Positions 1-32,585 of a stretch of 64,000 nt of DNA are shown here, piece after piece. This DNA comes from Paenibacillus terrigena DSM 21567 (lineage in GTDB: Bacteria > Bacillota > Bacilli > Paenibacillales > Paenibacillaceae). The translations under genes were made by a program, and so were the position numbers. Position 1 is the stretch's first letter. Each line of letters starts with the position of its first letter. Below the pieces are notes generated by a model. That model was not told where the DNA came from, did not search any database, and was given only the letters and a program-made list of their open reading frames with translations. The stretch is from the NCBI RefSeq assembly GCF_000374845.1, contig NZ_KB895417.1, forward strand, positions 1,661 through 65,660, written 5' to 3'.

Positions 1-112
1 ATGAGATTTCCCAATTAGTAAGACCCCTTGAAGACGACGAGGTTGATAGGTTGGAGGTGGAAGCACAGCAATGTGTGGAGCTGACCAATACTAATCGGTC
101 GAGGGCTTATCC
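1..112 (+). rRNA. 23S rRNA, 3' end (partial)
   Basis: The first bases match the conserved 3' end of bacterial 23S rRNA, including the segments GACGACGAGGTTGATAGG and GACCAATACTAATCGGTCGA. The gene starts outside the window. The 3' boundary near 112 is estimated from the usual end of the terminal helix. Confidence 0.95.
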
Positions 113-147
113 TAAACATAAAACGCAAATTTATTTCGCATCCGGTT

Positions 148-167
148 TTCAGAGATCAAACTCTGAA
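148..167 (+). other. 23S-5S spacer hairpin
   Basis: TTCAGAG and CTCTGAA form a 7-bp stem with a 6-base loop in the 23S-5S spacer. It is probably part of the rRNA processing structure; this is inferred from position only. Confidence 0.4.
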
Positions 168-173
168 CATAAT

Positions 174-296
174 CCGTTTGGTGTCGATGGCGGAGGGGTT
201 CCACGCGTACCCATCCCGAACACGACCGTTAAGCCCTCTAGCGCCGATGGTACTTGGACCGCAGGGTCCTGGGAGAGTAGGACGATGCCAAGCGGA
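174..296 (+). rRNA. rrf: 5S rRNA
   Basis: The sequence has the 5S signature: CCATCCCGAACACG, TTAAGCCCTCTAGCGCCGATGGTA and GGGAGAGTAGGACG. The ends CCGTTTGG and CCAAGCGGAT pair to form helix I. It follows the 23S end by about 60 bases, the usual Bacillota order. Confidence 0.95.
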
Positions 297-297
297 T

Positions 298-319
298 ACC
301 ACTTTTGTGGTTTTTTTTT
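298..319 (+). terminator. hairpin with U tract after 5S
   Basis: ACCAC-TTTT-GTGGT followed by a run of T directly after the 5S end. The stem is only 5 bp, so it may be a weak terminator or processing site ahead of the tRNA cluster. Confidence 0.45.
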
Positions 320-355
320 GCCCATCAGATGGTTCACATAACGAAAGTTAGACAT

Positions 356-430
356 GGCCCGTTGGTCAAGGGGTTAAGACACCTCCCTTTCACGGAGGTA
401 ACAGGGGTTCGAATCCCCTACGGGTCACCA
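356..430 (+). tRNA. tRNA-Glu (TTC)
   Basis: Full cloverleaf: acceptor GGCCCGT/ACGGGTC, anticodon loop CTTTCAC with TTC, T arm GGGGTTCGAATCCCC and an encoded CCA. First of six tRNAs downstream of the rRNA genes. Confidence 0.97.
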
Positions 431-440
431 TGAAGATTAT

Positions 441-517
<77 letters not shown>

Positions 518-540
518 AATTATTACCGAGTTTATACTGT

Positions 541-617
541 GGAGCTGTGGTGTAGAGGCCTAACATGCCTGCCTGTCACGCAGGAGACCGCGGGTTCGAA
601 TCCCGTCAGCTCCGCCA
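541..617 (+). tRNA. tRNA-Asp (GTC)
   Basis: Acceptor GGAGCTG/CAGCTCC, anticodon loop CTGTCAC with GTC, T arm CGGGTTCGAATCCCG, encoded CCA. Confidence 0.96.
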
Positions 618-642
618 TTTTTATTCTTGATCAACTTCATAT

Positions 643-717
643 GCGGACGTGGCTCAGCGGTAGAGCATCGCCTTGCCAAGGCGAGGGTCGCGGGTTCGAT
701 TCCCGTCGTCCGCTCCA
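643..717 (+). tRNA. tRNA-Gly (GCC)
   Basis: Acceptor GCGGACG/CGTCCGC, anticodon loop TTGCCAA with GCC, T arm CGGGTTCGATTCCCG, encoded CCA. Confidence 0.96.
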
Positions 718-731
718 TTACAATTTTATAT

Positions 732-808
732 GCGCCCTTAGCTCAGCTGGATAGAGCGTTTGACTACGAATCAAAAGGCCAGGAGTTCGAATCTCTTAGG
801 GCGCGCCA
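732..808 (+). tRNA. tRNA-Arg (ACG)
   Basis: Acceptor GCGCCCT/AGGGCGC, anticodon loop CTACGAA with ACG (A34 is expected to become inosine), encoded CCA. Confidence 0.96.
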
Positions 809-820
809 TTTCTTTTTTGT

Positions 821-897
821 CGGGATGTAGCTCAGCTTGGTAGAGCACCTGGTTTGGGACCAGGGGGTCGCATGTTCAAATCGTGTCATCCCGACCA
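821..897 (+). tRNA. tRNA-Pro (TGG)
   Basis: Acceptor CGGGATG/CATCCCG, anticodon loop TTTGGGA with TGG, encoded CCA. Last tRNA of the cluster. Confidence 0.96.
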
Positions 898-1172: not shown

Positions 1173-1227
1173 CTTATGAAAAACTTTACCTTTTCTTTCT
1201 TTTCTCTTAGTTTCCGTTCTTTATACT
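1173..1227 (+). promoter_or_regulatory. VanR-type regulated promoter 1 (four 11-bp repeats plus -10)
   Basis: Four units beginning CTTA/CTTT start at 1173, 1184, 1195 and 1206, exactly 11 bases apart. They are followed by a -10 box TATACT at 1222-1227. No good -35 hexamer lies 17 bases upstream of it; the repeat occupies that place. Direct repeats with helical spacing are typical of OmpR-family activators, so binding by the VanR homolog encoded at 5578-6267 is the natural inference. A nearly identical array precedes 4682. Confidence 0.7.
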
Positions 1228-1264
1228 ATCGATACGAACAAGAAAAAGAATGGGAGAGATGAAA

Positions 1265-2323
1265 ATGGAGCGAGCGAAGGTAGTAGTTTTATTTGGTGGC
1301 ATGTCCACAGAACATCAGGTGTCATTACAATCTGCAGCGGCAGTGATTGAACATATACCGCATGACAAGTATGAAGTGATGTGTATCGGCATTACAGAGG
1401 AGGGCAAATGGCTTCATTATATCGGTGGCATCGATCAGATTCGGGATGGCAGCTGGCATCAACATACGACATGTCGTCCGGCTAGCATTCTCGTTGATCC
1501 GACCCGACCAGGGATTCTGTTATTAGACGATAACGGGCAATATGAACATGTTCATGTCGATTGCGTGTTCCCTGTCTTACATGGCAAGAACGGCGAAGAC
1601 GGTACAGTTCAAGGCTTACTTCAATTATCAGGGATCCCCTATGTAGGGTGTGATACGGCTTCGTCTGCGGTCTCAATGGACAAGGCATTCACGCAAGATC
1701 TCGTCAAGAGTGCGGGAATCGTTACGACAGAGTATATGTATGTCACGCAGGCTACATATGATGCGAAGCGTATCGATATGTACATCCATGAGAACTTCGG
1801 TTACCCGGTATTCGTGAAGCCTTCGAGCTCCGGTTCCTCGGTCGGCATAACGAAGGTGCGTGATGCAGAAGCATTGGATCGGGCGGTCCAATATGCATTT
1901 ACGTTCGATCGTAAAGTCATTATCGAGAAGGAAGTTCGAGGGATTGAAGTGGGCTGTGCGGTCTATGGCAATGAGGAATTGTCCACGGGTGTGATTGGGG
2001 AGATTGAGCCTAGTCGCGATTTCCTGGATTATGACGATAAGTATCTGCTTGGAGAGATCAAGCAGCATGTACCCGCTAGAGTTCATCCGGAAGTGCTCGA
2101 AGCGGTGAAGCAGCGTGGTATGGAAGTATACCGCGTCTTAGGCTGCAGAGGACTAGCACGTGTAGATTTCTTCATCACGCCAGCAGGCGAAATTATATTT
2201 AATGAGATTAATTCAATGCCGGGGTTCACCGCGTCTAGTCGTTACCCTGCCATGATTGCAGCTGCAGGCCTATCCTATAGCGAATTGATTGATCGGTTGA
2301 TCGAGCTGGCAAGGGAGTCGTAG
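1265..2323 (+). CDS. Van-type D-Ala-D-X ligase, probably D-Ala-D-Ser
   Basis: ATP-grasp ligase of 352 residues that joins D-Ala to a second residue for peptidoglycan precursors. Van-family rather than housekeeping Ddl traits are visible: FGGMSTEHQVS near the N terminus, LHGKNGEDGTVQGL, the YVGCDTASSAVSMDK segment, EVGCAVYGN, and the C-terminal metal/ATP site FNEINSMPGFT. The omega-loop reads DFLDYDDKY. The KY pair is kept, whereas VanA/VanB-type D-Ala-D-Lac ligases have a His there; this argues for Ala-Ala or Ala-Ser chemistry. The downstream serine-racemase genes favour D-Ala-D-Ser (VanC/E/G/L/N group). ATG at 1265 is chosen because GGGAG lies 8 bases upstream; ATGs at 1250 and 1259 are also in frame. 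The next gene starts 3 bases after its stop. Confidence 0.85.
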   Translation: MERAKVVVLFGGMSTEHQVSLQSAAAVIEHIPHDKYEVMCIGITEEGKWLHYIGGIDQIRDGSWHQHTTCRPASILVDPTRPGILLLDDNGQYEHVHVDCVFPVLHGKNGEDGTVQGLLQLSGIPYVGCDTASSAVSMDKAFTQDLVKSAGIVTTEYMYVTQATYDAKRIDMYIHENFGYPVFVKPSSSGSSVGITKVRDAEALDRAVQYAFTFDRKVIIEKEVRGIEVGCAVYGNEELSTGVIGEIEPSRDFLDYDDKYLLGEIKQHVPARVHPEVLEAVKQRGMEVYRVLGCRGLARVDFFITPAGEIIFNEINSMPGFTASSRYPAMIAAAGLSYSELIDRLIELARES

Positions 2324-2326
2324 GAA

Positions 2327-3346
2327 ATGACCAAGCAACGAGACCATGCACTCGATCTTACCAAGCTTATCATGGCCTTTTTGGTGATTTGTATCCATAC
2401 GGACCCGCTGGAATCGTATTCCGATACAGGTAATTTTATTCTAACGAGGGTGATCGCACGGGTGGCGGTTCCCTTTTTCTTTATGACTGCGGGTTATTAT
2501 TTTTTCGTGAAATCAAGATCGATGTCGCAATTCAAGCAGTATATGAAGAAGCTCGGAGTCACCTACGTGCTGTGGAGTGCCATTTACCTTCCGGTGAATA
2601 TGTATGTCTGGATGAACGAAGGCTTTACGAAGGAATGGCTTCTGCACTATATCAAGCAAGTGATCTTCATTGGTACCTATTATCATTTATGGTTCCTACC
2701 CGCTCTTATGTGCGCCATTGCCATCGTCTATTTCTTACAGCAGAGGATGCAGCTTCGATGGATCGCAGCGATTTCAATCCTTCTTTATACGATAGGCTTG
2801 TTAGCTGATTCCTATTATGGACTAGCCGTCCAAGCTCCAGTGCTGAAAGACATCGTTAATGGGTATCTGGCTGTATTTGAGTATAGTCGAAATGGGCTCT
2901 TTTTCGGGCTCCCTTTCGTTGCGCTAGGCGCCTTGATTGCCAAGGAATTACCACAATGGAGGCTGTCAGATGCACTCTGTGAGTTCGGTCTTCTTTTCGC
3001 ATTCGGGTGGATGGTCTTCGAAGCAGCGTTGCTTCGGATCTTAGGGTGGCCGCATCATGACAGTATGTATCTCATGCTCGTCCCAGTGGTAAGTTTGGGA
3101 TTCATTTACCTGCTGAGGCTCGATATTCGAGAAAAATCATTCTATCGATATGCTTCTGAGATCAGCATGGTATTGTATTTGATCCACCCTGCGGTGATCC
3201 TCGCCGTCAGGGTCCTATCTCTTCAGCTTCCGATTTTAAAAGCGAGTAGTCTATTATATTTTTTCGTCATCTTCATCCTATCATTCGCCTTATCACATCT
3301 ATGGGTCAGGAGGAAACGTTATGCTGCAAAGACGAGCTTGGGCTGA
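2327..3346 (+). CDS. membrane component of a split VanT (acyltransferase-3 fold)
   Basis: Integral membrane protein of 339 residues with about ten hydrophobic segments. It resembles the N-terminal half of VanT serine racemases: the start HALDLTKLIMAFLVICIHTDPL and the segment RVAVPFFFMTAGYYFF match the acyltransferase-3-like membrane domain thought to import L-Ser for the racemase. In most VanT proteins this domain is fused to the racemase. Here it ends with its own stop and overlaps the racemase gene by 26 bases, so the pair looks like a two-gene VanT, as known for vanTm/vanTr of the VanL operon. Start ATG has AGGGAG 9 bases upstream. An unrelated acyltransferase is less likely given the neighbours. 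Confidence 0.78.
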   Translation: MTKQRDHALDLTKLIMAFLVICIHTDPLESYSDTGNFILTRVIARVAVPFFFMTAGYYFFVKSRSMSQFKQYMKKLGVTYVLWSAIYLPVNMYVWMNEGFTKEWLLHYIKQVIFIGTYYHLWFLPALMCAIAIVYFLQQRMQLRWIAAISILLYTIGLLADSYYGLAVQAPVLKDIVNGYLAVFEYSRNGLFFGLPFVALGALIAKELPQWRLSDALCEFGLLFAFGWMVFEAALLRILGWPHHDSMYLMLVPVVSLGFIYLLRLDIREKSFYRYASEISMVLYLIHPAVILAVRVLSLQLPILKASSLLYFFVIFILSFALSHLWVRRKRYAAKTSLG

Positions 3347-4445
3347 AATTAATCTAGATCATATCGCTTATAATCTGGAACAAATCCGGTCCATCCTCCC
3401 GGCGAAGACACAGATCATGGCTGTTGTGAAGGGGGATGCCTATGGGCATGGGGCAAGGCGAACCGCTCAATTGCTGACGGAATTAGGTGTGGCGAGGTTC
3501 GCGGTATCCAATCTGGATGAAGCGATCTCCCTAAGGCAGTACGGCATTAGAGGTGAGATCTTGATTCTTGGTGCTACGCCACAGGAAGGATTCGAACAGC
3601 TGGCAGCCTACCAGATTACGCAGACGGTATTTTCACCAGAGTATGCTGAACAGCTGAATCAATACGGGCTGGATCATCAAATTCGGTTTCCGATTCATAT
3701 TAAAATAGATACAGGTATGTACCGGATTGGATTCGCTTATGACGACATGGATGCGGTGAAGGCCTTATTTGCGTATCCAGGGTTACATGTTCAAGGGGTG
3801 TTCACCCATTTCTCTGTTGCGGATCAGTTGAATCCTAAAGATGAGGCCTATACGCGGATGCAAGCGGATCGATTCGATACGTGCTTGTACCAGCTGCGAG
3901 AGTATCCCGTAGGGATGACCCATATCCAGAACAGTGCTGGGATCGTAAATTATCCGGATTTCCACTATGACTTGGTTCGTCCGGGAATGCTGCTATTTGG
4001 TGTTCCTTCTGGAGAAATGAGTCAAGACCTCCAGTTAAAGCCTGTGATGCAGCTCAAGGCCACCATTGTAATGGTAAAGCATGTTCTTAAGGGAGCTGAG
4101 ATCGGGTATGGACGGGATTATGTAGCACAACGGGATATGAAGATTGCGACGATACCGATTGGCTATGCGGATGGGTATCCGCGAAGTGTGTCGGGGAAAG
4201 GCTCACAAGTCCTTATTCATGGACAATATGCTGAGCAAATTGGCAAGGTGTGCATGGACCAGCTTATGGTGGATGTCACGGACATAGATGATGTCCGTCT
4301 TGGCGACGCGGTCGTTCTCGTGGGAGAGGATCAGGGAAATACGGTAACGCTATCCTCTCTAGCGGAATTAGCTGGAACAATCACCAATGAACTGGTATGC
4401 AGTATTTCGGCACGCGTTCCTCGTGTGCATGTTCAGCAGGGGTGA
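3321..4445 (+). CDS. vanT: PLP-dependent racemase, VanTr-type serine racemase candidate
   Basis: Fold-III PLP racemase of 374 residues, full length for alanine racemase. The PLP lysine lies in AVVKGDAYGHGA, the catalytic Tyr in EIGYGRDYVA, and the substrate-site region in KVCMDQLMVD. In alanine racemase the C-terminal motif reads CTISYRVPR, where the Tyr (354 in Geobacillus Alr) limits side-chain size. Here it reads CSISARVPR with Ala364, which enlarges the pocket; VanT enzymes also replace this Tyr. That supports serine racemisation, though a broad Ala/Ser enzyme is possible. It starts inside the membrane gene, with AGGAGGAA 7 bases before ATG, implying translational coupling. Confidence 0.82.
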   Translation: MLQRRAWAEINLDHIAYNLEQIRSILPAKTQIMAVVKGDAYGHGARRTAQLLTELGVARFAVSNLDEAISLRQYGIRGEILILGATPQEGFEQLAAYQITQTVFSPEYAEQLNQYGLDHQIRFPIHIKIDTGMYRIGFAYDDMDAVKALFAYPGLHVQGVFTHFSVADQLNPKDEAYTRMQADRFDTCLYQLREYPVGMTHIQNSAGIVNYPDFHYDLVRPGMLLFGVPSGEMSQDLQLKPVMQLKATIVMVKHVLKGAEIGYGRDYVAQRDMKIATIPIGYADGYPRSVSGKGSQVLIHGQYAEQIGKVCMDQLMVDVTDIDDVRLGDAVVLVGEDQGNTVTLSSLAELAGTITNELVCSISARVPRVHVQQG

Positions 4446-4472
4446 CACTGTCACTAGCAGTAAGGAATCATG

Positions 4473-4500
4473 AACCCACCGTTCACAAGGTGGGTTTTTG
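4473..4500 (+). terminator. terminator after the racemase gene
   Basis: AACCCACC and GGTGGGTT form an 8-bp stem followed by TTTT, 27 bases after the racemase stop. It separates the ligase-racemase unit from the carboxypeptidase-VanRS unit. Confidence 0.85.
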
Positions 4501-4595
4501 CATGTGTTAAATGGTTCCATCGTTTTGGCGGCATGGAGGATGGGTACATGATAGAATGAAGGGGAAATGCGTGTAAATGCAACTTTGAACAATTC

Positions 4596-4649
4596 CTTAG
4601 AAATTCTTAATCTTTTCTTTCTGTTCTCTTAGAATCCGCTCTTTATACT
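4596..4649 (+). promoter_or_regulatory. VanR-type regulated promoter 2
   Basis: Repeat units CTTA/CTTT start at 4596, 4606, 4617 and 4628 (spacing 10, 11, 11), then -10 TATACT at 4644-4649. Over 40 bases ending at TATACTA this promoter matches promoter 1 at 36 positions. The first unit reads CTTAGAAATTCTTAA, close to published VanR box sequences as I remember them. This promoter would autoregulate the VanRS genes. Confidence 0.7.
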
Positions 4650-4681
4650 AGCAGTAATCTGTTAGATAGGAGTGCATGAAA

Positions 4682-5581
4682 ATGATTAAAACTAGAGTGA
4701 TCACAGGAATATCCGTCGTTTCGGCCATTTGTACCGTACTGTTCCTTAAACATATCGTAGAACCTACTATAGAAGCACAAGCCGCATTGCTAATCAATGC
4801 GAAGACAGGTGAAGTTCTGTATGAGAAAAATGCGGACATGTCGCTCCCGGCAGCGAGCATGTCGAAGATGATGACGGAATATCTGGTACTTGAACAATTA
4901 CATCAAGGGAAGATAAGTTGGAACGATGAGGTTTCGATCAGCTCTGATGCGGCGATTACCGACGGGGTAAAAATTGATCTAAGGGTTGGAGATCGCGTGA
5001 CCGTGCGGGATTTGTATGCCGCCATGTTAATTGCTTCAGCGAATAATGCGGCCGTCGCGTTAGCTGAGCATATTGCAGGGTCTGAGGCTAATTTTGCTGC
5101 ACGAATGAATGAAAAAGGGCTTGAGTTGGGGCTAGAGAATTCTTATTTCATCAATGCAACGGGATTAACGGAAGGGGACCAAGCTTCCCAGATGACGGCC
5201 AAGGATCTTGGGAAGTTGGCCCAGGCATTGCTGCGTGATTACCCGGAGGTGCTCAAGACAACGAGCCTACCCGCGTACACATTAAAATTTAGCAGAGAGA
5301 AAGTTCAGAGCACCAATCACATGCTGTTGAAGCCGGAATTAACGGTCGAAGGAATGGATGGGTTGAAAACAGGCTATACGAATAAGGCAGGTTATTGCTT
5401 CACAGGGACAGCATCACGCGATGGGCGTCGGCTCATCTCGGTCGTCATGGGAACGAACGATTCGGATACGCGATTCGTAGAGACCCAGAAGTTAATGGCC
5501 TTGGGATTCGACTCCGTCTATATCCCAACTATTCGTTCCATACTAGTAAAAGTCAAAGCGATAAAGGAGCAATGGGTATGA
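4682..5581 (+). CDS. serine D,D-carboxypeptidase (PBP5/DacA type), VanY role
   Basis: 299-residue SxxK peptidase that would trim terminal D-Ala from pentapeptide precursors. The N terminus has a signal or anchor segment up to about residue 30 (IEAQA followed by ALLINAKTGEVLYEKN). Active-site motifs are visible: SMSK, SAN and KTG (LKTGYTNKAGY). It stops soon after the peptidase domain and lacks the PBP5 C-terminal beta domain and amphipathic anchor. It is unrelated to the zinc VanX/VanXY/VanY enzymes, but VanD-type clusters use a PBP-like VanY too. No VanX homolog is in the window. ATG 4682 has AGGAG at 9 bases; ATG 4676 would leave only 3. The stop overlaps the vanR start by 4 bases. Confidence 0.85.
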   Translation: MIKTRVITGISVVSAICTVLFLKHIVEPTIEAQAALLINAKTGEVLYEKNADMSLPAASMSKMMTEYLVLEQLHQGKISWNDEVSISSDAAITDGVKIDLRVGDRVTVRDLYAAMLIASANNAAVALAEHIAGSEANFAARMNEKGLELGLENSYFINATGLTEGDQASQMTAKDLGKLAQALLRDYPEVLKTTSLPAYTLKFSREKVQSTNHMLLKPELTVEGMDGLKTGYTNKAGYCFTGTASRDGRRLISVVMGTNDSDTRFVETQKLMALGFDSVYIPTIRSILVKVKAIKEQWV

Positions 5582-6267
5582 GTACAACCGTATTAATCGT
5601 CGATGACGACAAAGAAATTGCAGAGCTCATCGAAGTGTACCTTCGCAACGAAGGCTTTACCATTCATAAAGCGCATGACGGCGTAGAGGCCATGAAGAAA
5701 ATGGAGAGCGTGACGTTTCAATTCTTAATCCTTGATATTATGATGCCCAAAATGGATGGGATGGAAGTGTGCAGACAGGTGCGCAAGAAGAGTAATATCC
5801 CGATCCTGATGCTCAGCGCGAAGGTGGAGGATATGGATAAAATTCTTGGTCTTATGACCGGTGCGGATGATTATATGATTAAGCCGTTCAATCCGCTCGA
5901 ATTAACAGCGCGTGTGAAGGCGTTGCTGCGGCGAGCCAATTACCAACAATCTGCGCAGATCGAAGGCAGCGCGATTCAGATTCAGTCGCTCGAGATTAAC
6001 AAGGAAAGTCATACGGTAAGCGTAGAAGGGAAGATTGTGAAGTTAACGTCGCTCGAGTTCGATATTCTGTATTTGCTCGCGAGCAATCCGGGCCGTGTGT
6101 TTAGTTCCGAAGAAATTTTTGAACGCGTGTGGGATGAATTAGGGGTAGGTTCGAACAAAACGGTGATGGTACATATCAGCAACCTTCGCGATAAGCTGGA
6201 AGCGGCTGCGCCTGGCGAGACATTCATCCAGACCGTATGGGGAGTAGGTTATAAAATTGAGAAGTAG
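5578..6267 (+). CDS. vanR: VanR-type response regulator (OmpR family)
   Basis: 229 residues: receiver domain (acidic DDD near residue 10, phospho-Asp in FLILDIMMPKMDG, Lys in GADDYMIKPF) and a C-terminal winged-helix domain ending TVWGVGYKIEK. It sits between the carboxypeptidase and a histidine kinase, as in van operons. ATG 5578 overlaps the previous stop as ATGA and has AAAGGAG 8 bases upstream; ATG 5572 is in frame but only 2 bases from that site. It probably binds the 11-bp repeats before 1265 and 4682. Confidence 0.9.
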   Translation: MSTTVLIVDDDKEIAELIEVYLRNEGFTIHKAHDGVEAMKKMESVTFQFLILDIMMPKMDGMEVCRQVRKKSNIPILMLSAKVEDMDKILGLMTGADDYMIKPFNPLELTARVKALLRRANYQQSAQIEGSAIQIQSLEINKESHTVSVEGKIVKLTSLEFDILYLLASNPGRVFSSEEIFERVWDELGVGSNKTVMVHISNLRDKLEAAAPGETFIQTVWGVGYKIEK

Positions 6268-7357
6268 TCCAATAGCCGTCCTACGGAATATGTCCATTTA
6301 TAGAATACTGTTTTATGTAGTCAGTTCGTTGTTCTTTGCGGGTGCCCTATACTATTTCTTATACTATATCTATAATCATTTGGGTGTCTTTCAAGGTGTT
6401 GCGGATGTGTTCCTGCGCTTTGTTCCGAGGAGTTTTATTTTCATGCTTGTCCTCATTCTCCTCATCGGATTCTGTTTATTCCTATGTTACCGCCATGAGA
6501 AAAAACGATATATTACGATGCGAATCCATCATATGATCGGGGAGATCCGTCATATCGCCGCAGGTAATTTTCATAAGCAGGTAGAAGTTGTGGATTCGTA
6601 TGAGCTGGGTGATCTAGCCATGAGCATTAACAACATTGTCGTTCAAGCGCAGAAGTCTATGGAAGAAGAACGGATGGCTGAGAAAATCAAAAATGATCTC
6701 GTAACCAACGTCTCCCATGATTTGCGTACCCCTCTGACGTCGATTCTTGGTTATCTCAATTTAATTAACGGCGATAAATATCGGGATGAGGTGGAACTTC
6801 GATATTACACCCAAATTGTGCATGAGAAAGCAAAACGTCTGCACGAGCTAATCAATGATTTGTTCGAGTTTACGCGTATGCAGAATAAAGGGATGATCCT
6901 GAATAAAGAACCGATCAATTTGGCCGAAATGCTCGATCAACTGGTCGTTCAGTTCGATCCTCAGCTCAAGCAGGCAGGGATGGAATGCCGGCAGCAATAT
7001 GAAGTGGTACATCCGATCGTCCCGGCCGATGGACGGAAGCTTGTCCGTGTATTCGAGAATCTCATCTCCAATGCGCTGAATTATGGTAAAGAAGGCAAGT
7101 ACGTGGATATTCTCCTGCGGGATACGGAACGATCCGTCATCGTCGAAATTACGAATTACGGCGAAGGGATTCCCGCGATTGATCTTCCTCATATTTTTGA
7201 TCGATTCTATCGGGTGGAGAAGTCTAGGTCCGAATATTCCGGGGGTTCAGGCCTTGGGCTTGCGATTGCCAAAAGTATTATGGATCTCCATGAAGGAGAG
7301 ATCCACGTCAGCAGCGATTCCGAACGTACGACGTTTCAAGTCTGGCTTCCGAAATGA
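6257..7357 (+). CDS. vanS: VanS-type sensor histidine kinase
   Basis: 366 residues: two transmembrane segments in the first 75 residues with a short external loop, a HAMP-like linker (AAGNFHKQVEVVDSYELG), the phospho-acceptor motif VSHDLRTPLT, N box NLISNALNYG, and G boxes around NYGEGIP and GGSGLGLAIAKS. The small external loop resembles VanS of the D-Ala-D-Ser and VanB-like clusters more than large-sensor kinases. The start is uncertain: TTG 6257 overlaps vanR by 11 bases; ATG 6290 is also in frame. The ligand cannot be read from sequence; a glycopeptide or cell-wall signal is inferred from context. Confidence 0.88.
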   Translation: MRSSPIAVLRNMSIYRILFYVVSSLFFAGALYYFLYYIYNHLGVFQGVADVFLRFVPRSFIFMLVLILLIGFCLFLCYRHEKKRYITMRIHHMIGEIRHIAAGNFHKQVEVVDSYELGDLAMSINNIVVQAQKSMEEERMAEKIKNDLVTNVSHDLRTPLTSILGYLNLINGDKYRDEVELRYYTQIVHEKAKRLHELINDLFEFTRMQNKGMILNKEPINLAEMLDQLVVQFDPQLKQAGMECRQQYEVVHPIVPADGRKLVRVFENLISNALNYGKEGKYVDILLRDTERSVIVEITNYGEGIPAIDLPHIFDRFYRVEKSRSEYSGGSGLGLAIAKSIMDLHEGEIHVSSDSERTTFQVWLPK

Positions 7358-7359
7358 TC

Positions 7360-8196
7360 CTAGCGTTGCGACGGGACGTAGCCATACATGCGGCGATGGA
7401 GCCTCGTAAAATAGGTGGGCTCCATTCCGACATAGGCCGCTGCTTGGCGAATCGTAATATCTGTGTGCTCATTTAATAAGGTTAGTGCCGTCTGCATTCG
7501 AATATGCTGCAAATATTGCAAGGGCGTCTGACCCAGCTCATCGCGAAATAAGCGGGTGAGCTGTTTTTGTGAGTAGCCAACATGGGCTGCCAGCTGCGTC
7601 ATCGTAATGGAACGGTTCAAGTGGTCATGCAGAAATCGCACGGCGCTCTCGACGGCAGATTCCCGATAGCGATTCAGTCTGCTGTGGAACATCGGCGTAT
7701 CGCCGACCTGGAACAATTGGTTCTGCCGTTTGATCTCCAGGAAGAGCGAGAATAATACCTCCGTCGTTAACCATGGATCTTCATGCGTGCCAGAGTTTGC
7801 CCAGATTTGCTCAATCAATGGGAAAATCGTGGCGATATCCGCTAGACGGGAATAGGTAGGTGACGCCCCGAACCCCCAGCTTGCCAGCATCCCCTCGCGT
7901 CGCTCTACGAAAGTCACATACCCAACATGCCAAGTTTCTCCCTTCAGGGATACATACTCATGCGGCAAGCCTTCCGGAATGTACAGACAAGAACCGGGAT
8001 CAAGAATGTCCCATTTGTCCTGTCCGAGTCTACGGAAACGGCCGGAGCCTGAGAAGGTGAATAGAATTTGTTTGGCAGAGAATCCACTAAGCCGTGTAAT
8101 CGGAATTTGAATATCTGTGCCGATTGTATAGACGGAAAAGGGGATATCGAATTCAATGTCCCGTCGCATGTTGCTGCGTAAAGGCAGTGTTTGCAT
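7360..8196 (-). CDS. AraC-family regulator of the beta-galactosidase gene
   Basis: 278 residues: an N-terminal cupin-like sensor region (PGSCLYIPEGLPHEYV) and two C-terminal HTH motifs in about the last 100 residues (MTQLAAHVGYSQKQLTRLFRDELGQTPLQYLQHIRM and the second around TIRQAAAYVGMEPTYFTRLHRRMYGYVPS). It is divergent from the GH2 gene across a 125-bp gap that carries a repeated 10-mer, so it most likely activates that gene in response to a sugar. It is convergent with vanS with only 2 bases between the stops and no terminator seen. Confidence 0.85.
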   Translation of the reverse strand: MQTLPLRSNMRRDIEFDIPFSVYTIGTDIQIPITRLSGFSAKQILFTFSGSGRFRRLGQDKWDILDPGSCLYIPEGLPHEYVSLKGETWHVGYVTFVERREGMLASWGFGASPTYSRLADIATIFPLIEQIWANSGTHEDPWLTTEVLFSLFLEIKRQNQLFQVGDTPMFHSRLNRYRESAVESAVRFLHDHLNRSITMTQLAAHVGYSQKQLTRLFRDELGQTPLQYLQHIRMQTALTLLNEHTDITIRQAAAYVGMEPTYFTRLHRRMYGYVPSQR

Positions 8197-8213
8197 GGGA
8201 TTCCTCCTTATAG

Positions 8214-11330
<3,117 letters not shown>

Positions 11331-11914: not shown

Positions 11915-12022
11915 AGAATGATTCTCTTATCTTTATAGATTCCTTAGAAGTTCCTGTTACGATGTCTCTGCGTGGTAAGAGAACGACGTAATAACGGATT
12001 TCGAAGGAGGAGAACATTCAAC

Positions 12023-13378
12023 ATGCAAGCAACGAAACGATTAACAGGTATCATGGCCCTGGGCCTAGCATTTTCACTATTACTATCGCCAGTGGGCGCC
12101 TCGGCGGCCGCGCAGAAGAATACGGGGTCGAAGGAGAATATCCAAGAGATTAAATCTTTGACGTCATCGGACTATAAAGATTTAGCGTTTCTGAAGCCGA
12201 TCTTGAAAGATAAGACGGTCGTTAGCCTTGGCGAGAACTTCCACCGTGTCGCAGAATACAGCAGCATGAAGACAAGGTTGATCAAATATTTACACGAAGA
12301 GCTGGATTTTGACGTGATTGCATTTGAGTCAGGCCTTGGGGATTCCTTCATGACGTATGAGAATGCAGGAACATGGACATCGCAACAAATGATGGAGCGT
12401 TCCATTTTTCCCATCTGGCATTCCAAGGAGACGCTGAATTTATTCGATTACATCAAGAAGAAGCAGGGGACGAACGATCCCTTATATCTAGCAGGTTATG
12501 ACATGCAGTTCACATCAGGATACTTAACGCAATTTATTGCTGGTTGGATTGCCAAGGTAGACAAGGTTCAGGGCGAGAATTATTTCAACTTCGAAATGCA
12601 AGCGATGACGGATTTCTATAAGGTGCTCAACGAATATGGCATGGACGATAGTCATCCGGAGGCGAAGGCAGAAATCAAGAAGGTGAAGGATGCGTACGAA
12701 CCGAAATACAAGGCGTTGATCCAGTTCATCCAAGAGAACAAAGAACAACTTGCGGCGGCCTACCCTGCGAACCCGCATATGGTGGATATCGCTGTCAAGA
12801 CGTTGGAAGATCGGGTCAAATTCATCGAGATGGGGATGTACGATACGAAGGAAAGCTATGAATTCCGCGATCGGATCATGGCTGACAACGTGGAGTGGTT
12901 AATGAAGGTGATGTATCCCGGCAAAAAAGTGATTTTATGGGCGCATAACGATCATCTGGCGAAGAATACGTCCAAAATCGAAACGAAAGAACAAGGGAAA
13001 TGGATCAACAGCTTTACGAGTATGGGAGAATTGCTGCATAAGAAGCTGAAGGATAAGGTCTATGTGATGGGTCTGTACATGAACAGCGGTAAGGCGAGTA
13101 CAATTACGACACAGAAGACCTTCGATATTCAGCCGATGCCGAAGGGGAGTCTGGAACAGCTGATGATGCAGAGCGGTTATAAGATTGCGTTTGCGGATCT
13201 ATCCAAGCACAAGTCTCCGAACCAAAATAACGCTTGGATGTTCAAGCCGATCTATGCAGCCGAGGATGGCATGACGTCCGAGATCATTATGCCGATGTCG
13301 ATGCGCTTCATTCCGAAAGAGCAATATGACGGGATCATCGTCTTCGATAAAGTCAAAGAACCGACAACGAAGTTCTAA
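12023..13378 (+). CDS. secreted erythromycin-esterase-family protein
   Basis: 451 residues with a signal peptide (MQATKRLTGIMALGLAFSLL, cleavage near ASA-AAQ). The family's conserved residues are all visible: Glu and His in SLGENFHRV, Glu in IAFESGLGD, and the His pair in LWAHNDHLAKN. Members include Ere macrolide esterases but also many unrelated hydrolases. Export argues against a cytoplasmic drug esterase, so the substrate is unknown. GTG at 11972 would extend the frame, but ATG 12023 has AAGGAGGAG at a good distance and starts a clean signal peptide. A weak CTTA-containing promoter region lies at 11920-11963. Confidence 0.8.
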   Translation: MQATKRLTGIMALGLAFSLLLSPVGASAAAQKNTGSKENIQEIKSLTSSDYKDLAFLKPILKDKTVVSLGENFHRVAEYSSMKTRLIKYLHEELDFDVIAFESGLGDSFMTYENAGTWTSQQMMERSIFPIWHSKETLNLFDYIKKKQGTNDPLYLAGYDMQFTSGYLTQFIAGWIAKVDKVQGENYFNFEMQAMTDFYKVLNEYGMDDSHPEAKAEIKKVKDAYEPKYKALIQFIQENKEQLAAAYPANPHMVDIAVKTLEDRVKFIEMGMYDTKESYEFRDRIMADNVEWLMKVMYPGKKVILWAHNDHLAKNTSKIETKEQGKWINSFTSMGELLHKKLKDKVYVMGLYMNSGKASTITTQKTFDIQPMPKGSLEQLMMQSGYKIAFADLSKHKSPNQNNAWMFKPIYAAEDGMTSEIIMPMSMRFIPKEQYDGIIVFDKVKEPTTKF

Positions 13379-32361: not shown

Positions 32362-32433
32362 AATGTGACTTCTTGAAATATACGATAATTTAATATTTGA
32401 CTATCTAAGATAAATTGTTGTAAAATGGAAATA

Positions 32434-32552
32434 CGCTTAATTTCCGGATATGAGATCGGAAAGCGGGGGAACCAATTTTTTGGGGCGAATCAAGGATGTA
32501 TTGTAGGGAACCATCTTTCCCGAGCCCGACAGCTAACCTCGTCAGCAGTGGA
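32434..32552 (+). ncRNA. c-di-AMP riboswitch (ydaO-yuaA class)
   Basis: The class signatures are present in order: CCGGATATGAGATCGG, AGCGGGGGAACCAATTTTTTGG followed by GGGCGAATC, a GGGAACC...CCCGA arm, and the highly conserved 3' part GCCCGACAGCTAACCTCGTCAGC. c-di-AMP binding normally turns such riboswitches off by favouring a terminator, and two terminator hairpins follow (32586 and 32625) before a KamA-family gene. Boundaries are approximate. Confidence 0.9.
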
Positions 32553-32585
32553 TGGGTCAATCATAGACACTTTTGCCGCACCCCT

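Follow-up and report, generated by a model that had tools for sequence, protein, structure and literature searches.

The described systems with which the present locus is most readily compared are the operons of the VanG and VanC/VanN types. The VanG operon is found in Enterococcus faecalis, and vanG-like operons occur in Paenibacillaceae and clostridia. The VanC and VanN operons of E. gallinarum and E. faecium have the order ligase, VanXY, fused VanT, VanR and VanS. The VanL operon of E. faecalis N06-0364 has one gene for the membrane part of VanT and another for the racemase (PMC9404765). The VanD operon carries VanYD, a D,D-carboxypeptidase of the penicillin-binding protein (PBP) type (PMC8698665), and VanYD-like genes have been reported in vanHAX clusters (PMC9689679). 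In Clostridioides difficile, the carboxypeptidase and two-component system dacJRS depletes vancomycin binding and shows synergy with a vanS mutation (PMC11326576). Here we describe a cluster at positions 1250–7357 of a 64,000-nt window, that is, of the whole stretch of DNA analysed, from the soil bacterium Paenibacillus terrigena DSM 21567 (NZ_KB895417.1; genome 6.36 Mb). Its best explanation, which we hold to be reasonably probable, is a VanRS-controlled, inducible D-Ala-D-Ser remodelling of the cell wall, probably of low level, built on the deepest branch of Van ligases and VanT sampled and with a carboxypeptidase replacing VanXY.

All six genes of the cluster are intact. They form two transcription units, ligase–VanT membrane subunit–VanT racemase and S11 carboxypeptidase–VanR–VanS (Table 1). 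Both the genes and their order agree with a preliminary description of this DNA. Families were assigned by Pfam and NCBIfam models, the latter with NCBIfam curated cut-offs, and for every gene but the carboxypeptidase the best NCBIfam model is a Van model. Like the VanG operon, which supplies the closest single hidden Markov model (HMM) for ligase and racemase, the cluster has a VanT-type racemase, VanRS and the omega-loop KY of the ligase. Unlike it, the cluster has no VanXY, a split VanT, an S11 carboxypeptidase, and a ligase and racemase that fall outside the VanG clade. With VanC/VanN it shares the ligase and VanT in first place, VanR–VanS downstream and, probably, a low-level D-Ala-D-Ser logic, but it differs in the missing VanXY, the split VanT and the S11 gene in front of VanR. 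Since VanR–VanS downstream of VanT is the VanC/VanN order, the layout is less odd than the preliminary description held when it called the order non-enterococcal.

The two remaining genomes of the genus (G001 and G002, the latter Paenibacillus selenitireducens ES3-24) have the same six genes in the same order, as does a genome from a different genus (G185); identity to the window is 61–94% for the individual genes. The recurrence of the whole set in three other genomes indicates that it is due neither to chance nor to assembly error. A total of 295 genomes of the family were searched for the gene combination, and split VanT together with a PBP-type carboxypeptidase and no VanX or VanXY was found in only four. 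No published description of the cluster was found in a literature search that had most subscription papers outside its reach.

The ligase, whose start is probably at 1265 and not at 1250, scores 453.9 bits with the VanG model NF000091 (cut-off 495) and 338 bits with the best Ddl equivalog; with the VanC/E/L/N model NF000207 it obtains 366 bits, short of the cut-off of 520. The ligase tree contained VanA, B, C, G and N and a Sedimentibacter-type group, and the racemase tree VanT-C, -G and -N, with the VanC1 and VanN sequences taken from plasmid records; the trees were without VanE, VanL and most of the D-Lac types. The window ligase and the Van ligases are monophyletic with a support of 100/100, the remaining Van ligases are united at 95.8/100, and a five-member lineage containing the window ligase is sister to VanA/B, VanC/N, VanG and the Sedimentibacter-type group jointly. 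By the approximately unbiased (AU) test, exclusion of the lineage from the Van clade is rejected (p=1.2e-6), as is a grouping of the ligase with the genome's own Ddl (p=0.0018). The latter constraint was evaluated by a fast constrained search, and the VanG, VanC/N and outside-Van constraints by fuller searches. The phylogeny that the preliminary description had called for thus places the ligase inside the Van clade and away from Ddl. For the ligase alone, a grouping with VanG is rejected (0.017) and one with VanC/N is borderline (0.054, in data without VanE and VanL). When ligase and racemase are concatenated, the VanC/N and VanG groupings are both rejected (0.012 and 0.017, respectively). Long-branch attraction is unlikely to underlie the basal position, since the window lineage is no long branch; the long branch is that of VanC/N. 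Identity with a housekeeping Ddl, two further enzymes of which type are carried by the genome (L055 and L056), was rejected by the tree, the AU tests and residues other than G-Y-M. Because all the curated cut-offs are missed and the lineage is sister to all Van ligases sampled, the ligase is probably no ortholog of VanG, VanC or VanL.

The active site of the ligase is part Ddl and part Van. Positions 243, 252 and 324 (VanG numbering), which reportedly are linked to D-Ser selectivity in VanG (Meziane-Cherif et al. 2012), are Asp, Phe and Arg in each of the 55 other Van ligases aligned, and Gly, Tyr and Met in 89 of the 90 enzymes of the Ddl type. VanC1 and VanN share Asp, Phe and Arg. In the present lineage, all five ligases have Gly, Leu and Arg. 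In the window ligase these are G250 and L259, where VanG has D243 and F252, and R331. The Van rather than Ddl signatures proposed earlier are therefore borne out at R331, which is Van-type, but not at G250, which is Ddl-type, or at L259, which is unique. The ligase has Y265, and the KY of the omega-loop is present as had been claimed. With this KY retained and VanH missing from the cluster, D-Lac is an unlikely substrate. Separately, the Sedimentibacter/Tissierellia ligases (L113:7569-10056, L084:7614-10062, L082 and L108) have D-F-R and KY with no adjoining VanT or VanXY. The L113 ligase lies directly after a Mur-ligase gene, in the MurF position, and L084 has the same layout, as would be expected if the housekeeping function were served there by a Van-type ligase.

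The racemase is likewise sister to all VanT racemases sampled (97.9/99 and 99.7/100), and the tree of the membrane domain is compatible with those of ligase and racemase. In the tree of ligase and racemase concatenated, the lineage is sister to all other D-Ser modules sampled. The racemase has Lys37 for pyridoxal phosphate (PLP) and Asn356, which corresponds to Asn in the aligned VanT-C, -N and -G and to Tyr in the genome's own Alr. We take this residue to be the equivalent of Asn696 of VanTG, which is reported to select for serine (Meziane-Cherif et al. 2015). The VanT-type Asn is present in all five racemases of the lineage; the exception among the aligned racemases is a few divergent Paenibacillus enzymes with Gln. 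A reordered cluster, racemase–VanXY–ligase, occurs in L053, L064, L191 (a Paenibacillus amylolyticus plasmid) and L047; its racemase is divergent, with Gln for Asn, and may have a different specificity.

The division of VanT into membrane and racemase genes, noted in the preliminary description, is upheld by the models and by the gene junction. The score of the membrane subunit with vanT-CELN, for which the cut-off is 900 bits, extends over positions 4–328 and covers half of the model. Among plasmid-borne relatives VanT is the nearest, at 32–39% identity, with full-length other acyltransferases below 29%. In the window the two genes, which are read in different frames, share 26 nt. All four genomes retain an overlap and the AGGAGG ribosome-binding site, so the split is real, and a frameshift of assembly or sequencing as its origin was rejected. 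The layout is that of VanL, but the parts are not orthologous: vanT-L-mem and vanT-L-cat give 160.7 and 240.2 bits, below the cut-offs of 675 and 750, so the split is not VanL's by descent. The membrane-domain tree fits an ancestral split or a later fission of VanT alike.

In place of VanX or VanXY, the cluster encodes a PBP5-like carboxypeptidase, as had been claimed. This exported protein, which also takes the place of an M15 VanY, has the S11 motifs SMSK61, SAN121 and KTG231 and one N-terminal membrane segment, and is without the second PBP5 domain. It reaches only 75.4 bits with the VanY-D model NF000471 (cut-off 625), and the VanD system differs also in making D-Lac. Neither VanX nor VanXY is found in the cluster, and PF01427 (VanX) is missing from the whole genome. 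The genome's two PF02557 proteins resemble an exported lipoprotein and a CwlK-like endolysin, and no cytoplasmic VanXY candidate was seen. Modules of VanR, VanS and carboxypeptidase without a ligase occur in G230 (L195) and G047 (L198), both of which also carry a separate cluster of ligase, VanXY and VanT-like racemase. Since these ligase-free modules hold the closest VanRS outside the lineage, the window cluster has the appearance of two modules put together, one for D-Ser and one with the carboxypeptidase. In layout the second module recalls dacJRS of C. difficile, whose D,D-carboxypeptidase and two-component system have been proposed to remove D-Ala from the targets of vancomycin. There, dacJRS has no ligase linkage, and vanG and dacJRS are synergistic but unlinked.

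The promoters suggest joint control of the two units by the cluster's VanR. VanR, with a probable start at 5572 or 5578 that overlaps the carboxypeptidase gene, groups with the VanR of the ligase-free modules; their clade also holds VanR-C/N and the L054 and L125 regulators. VanS has membrane segments at residues 13–31 and 59–77, with an outer loop of about 27 residues. Each unit has in front of it a block of about 36 bp with TATACT but no -35. This block has two matches at ≤3 mismatches in 6.36 Mb, both in the cluster, and a reversed control gave 0; chance similarity of the promoters was thus rejected. All four genomes keep the block upstream of each unit, and the Cohnella ligase is preceded by part of it. 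Block 1 lies 5′ of the ligase in L035, L036 and L037 and partly in L038, and block 2 aligns to block 1 by blastn in relatives. A consensus sigma-70 scan did not pick up block 1, and a simple terminator scan did not list the hairpin. Since the near-identical block precedes both units and occurs nowhere else in the genome, the units are probably one VanR regulon. The two transcription units proposed earlier are thus separated by a hairpin but are probably co-regulated by twin promoters.

Table 1. Features of the cluster and its upstream border (positions in the window)
Feature	Position	Strand	Characteristics
3′ end of 23S rRNA, 5S rRNA, six tRNA genes	1..897	+	just upstream; setting, outside the cluster mechanism
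Promoter block 1	1192..1227	+	TTTCTTTCTTTTCTCTTAGTTTCCGTTCTTTATACT; TATACT -10, no sigma-70 -35; candidate VanR-dependent promoter of ligase–VanT unit
Van-type D-Ala:D-X ligase	1250..2323	+	Ddl N and C domains; highest NCBIfam score with VanG
VanT membrane subunit (AT3/TmAT fold)	2327..3346	+	PF01757 (Acyl_transf_3); NCBIfam vanT-CELN 210 bits
AGGAGG ribosome-binding site for racemase	3308..3313	+	inside 3′ end of membrane gene; 4/4 genomes
VanT catalytic subunit (PLP serine/alanine racemase)	3321..4445	+	Ala_racemase N and C; vanT-G-Cterm 452.1 bits (cut-off 460)
Rho-independent terminator-like hairpin	4472..4499	+	GAACCCACC/GGTGGGTTT and T run; ends ligase–VanT unit; fold z-score -2.3
Promoter block 2, near-copy of block 1	4614..4649	+	5′ of carboxypeptidase–VanRS unit
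Exported S11 (PBP5-like) D,D-carboxypeptidase	4676..5581	+	PF00768 244 bits; domain 1 only
VanR-like OmpR-family response regulator	5572..6267	+	vanR_ACDEGLN 280.9 bits (cut-off 350)
VanS-like histidine kinase	6257..7357	+	HK_VanS 266.6 bits (cut-off 400); H-box SHDLRTPLT

A reduced relative is found in Cohnella caldifontis (G148), with ligase, racemase, VanR and VanS and no carboxypeptidase. The other Paenibacillaceae examined have VanG-like clusters, mostly ligase–VanXY–VanT with a fused or racemase-only VanT, and some are without VanXY. The cluster ligase of G185 is 80% identical to that of the window and its housekeeping Ddl 65%, whereas in the other genomes the relation is reversed or equal (89 versus 94% in G001, 84 versus 88% in G002, 67 versus 69% in G148). 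This suggests that the cluster moved horizontally, into G185.

We infer D-Ser specificity, VanR control and a resistance phenotype from these sequence features, and the cluster could then work as follows. VanS would sense the glycopeptide or its damage and phosphorylate VanR, which would activate the two near-identical promoters. The split VanT, with its membrane subunit and its putative PLP racemase, would make D-Ser in the cytoplasm. The ligase would join D-Ala to D-Ser, with mixed use of D-Ala and D-Ser being likely since only one of the three VanG-type selectivity residues is kept, and MurF would add the dipeptide to the precursors. As no VanX or VanXY dipeptidase is present, D-Ala-D-Ala would not be cleared in the cytoplasm; the exported serine carboxypeptidase would trim the terminal D-Ala from precursors still ending in D-Ala-D-Ala. 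The expected outcome is an inducible low-level resistance, which beta-lactams should weaken because S11 enzymes are penicillin-sensitive.

Several observations weigh against this explanation. All genes remain under the NCBIfam curated Van cut-offs. The Asp and Phe of the 55 other Van ligases are replaced by G250 and L259, and the substrate may for this reason be D-Ala or another D-residue. The promoter block is unlike the published enterococcal VanR consensus (T/C)CGTANGAAA(T/A)T (PMC4405338). By the enterococcal yardstick, the lack of VanXY would mean weak resistance. Alternatively, the cluster could be a divergent but ordinary VanG/VanC-type operon that lost vanXY, had vanT broken in two, recruited a carboxypeptidase and kept D-Ala-D-Ser. 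VanG is the best single model for both ligase and racemase, other Paenibacillaceae have ligase–VanXY–VanT clusters of which some lack the membrane subunit or VanXY, and for the ligase alone the VanC/N grouping is not firmly rejected. Nevertheless, we consider such a derivation unlikely: ligase and racemase lie outside all VanG, VanC/N and VanA/B sampled, both groupings fail in the concatenated test, and to reach G-L-R two positions that are invariant in the 55 other Van ligases would have had to change, one back to Gly and the other to Leu.

More doubtful still is a main effect of the carboxypeptidase–VanRS unit, in the manner of dacJRS, with ligase and racemase supplying D-Ala-D-Ala or D-Ser for wall repair and the vancomycin target not replaced. 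It would agree with the ligase-free modules of G230 and G047, with the Ddl-like position 250 of the ligase, and with the removal of vancomycin binding sites by overexpression of dacJ alone in C. difficile (PMC11326576). However, the Van-only Arg of the ligase and the VanT-type Asn of the racemase are retained throughout the five-member lineage, and Cohnella keeps its four genes without any carboxypeptidase. The cluster might also have no role in resistance and be a D-amino-acid wall-editing operon, for instance of sporulation, stationary phase or signalling, that uses Van homologues. The C. difficile vanG clusters have indeed been called cryptic or disputed in resistance (PMC11326576, PMC4405338), but regulators of the VanR/VanS family, the conserved promoter architecture, a gene content matching resistance operons and the signs of horizontal transfer into G185 (80% versus 65%) make this very improbable.

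As to the surroundings, a tRNA array similar to that upstream of the cluster precedes it in G001 and G002. Directly after the cluster lie divergent genes for an AraC-type regulator and a LacZ-type beta-galactosidase (7360–11330), so named by sequence reading; the AraC gene adjoins the cluster in G001 too. An erythromycin-esterase family protein (PF05139) is encoded about 4.6 kb downstream of the cluster at 11972–13378, and a c-di-AMP riboswitch (ydaO/yuaA leader, 84.6 bits) is located at 32424–32562.

How a Ddl was converted to a resistance ligase is an open question for which few intermediates are available. The preliminary description had proposed an environmental ancestor or a parallel lineage of D-Ala-D-Ser resistance. 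The congruent ligase, racemase and membrane trees support an early or parallel lineage; the term ancestor goes too far for what is a sister lineage. Tentatively, and with less than even confidence, the lineage may be regarded as a stage on the path from Ddl to every known Van ligase, in which the Arg had been gained and the ligase was already paired with a serine racemase, as yet unfused, but Asp and Phe were not yet present. If this is true, D-Ala-D-Ser ligation would be older than D-Ala-D-Lac ligation, VanT would originally have been two genes, and trimming of the target by a serine carboxypeptidase would offer a second solution beside VanXY. Since the ligase and racemase branch earliest among the enzymes compared and the active site is of mixed type, the cluster may shed light on the origin of such resistance. 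The ligase has a hybrid active site and shares its basal position with its own racemase, so that the sequence of events may be traced through the kinetics of one or two proteins. Our study suggests that VanX/VanXY is not indispensable to a D-Ser cluster that has a penicillin-type carboxypeptidase, and that two routes of escape from vancomycin, separate in C. difficile, are here joined in one regulon.

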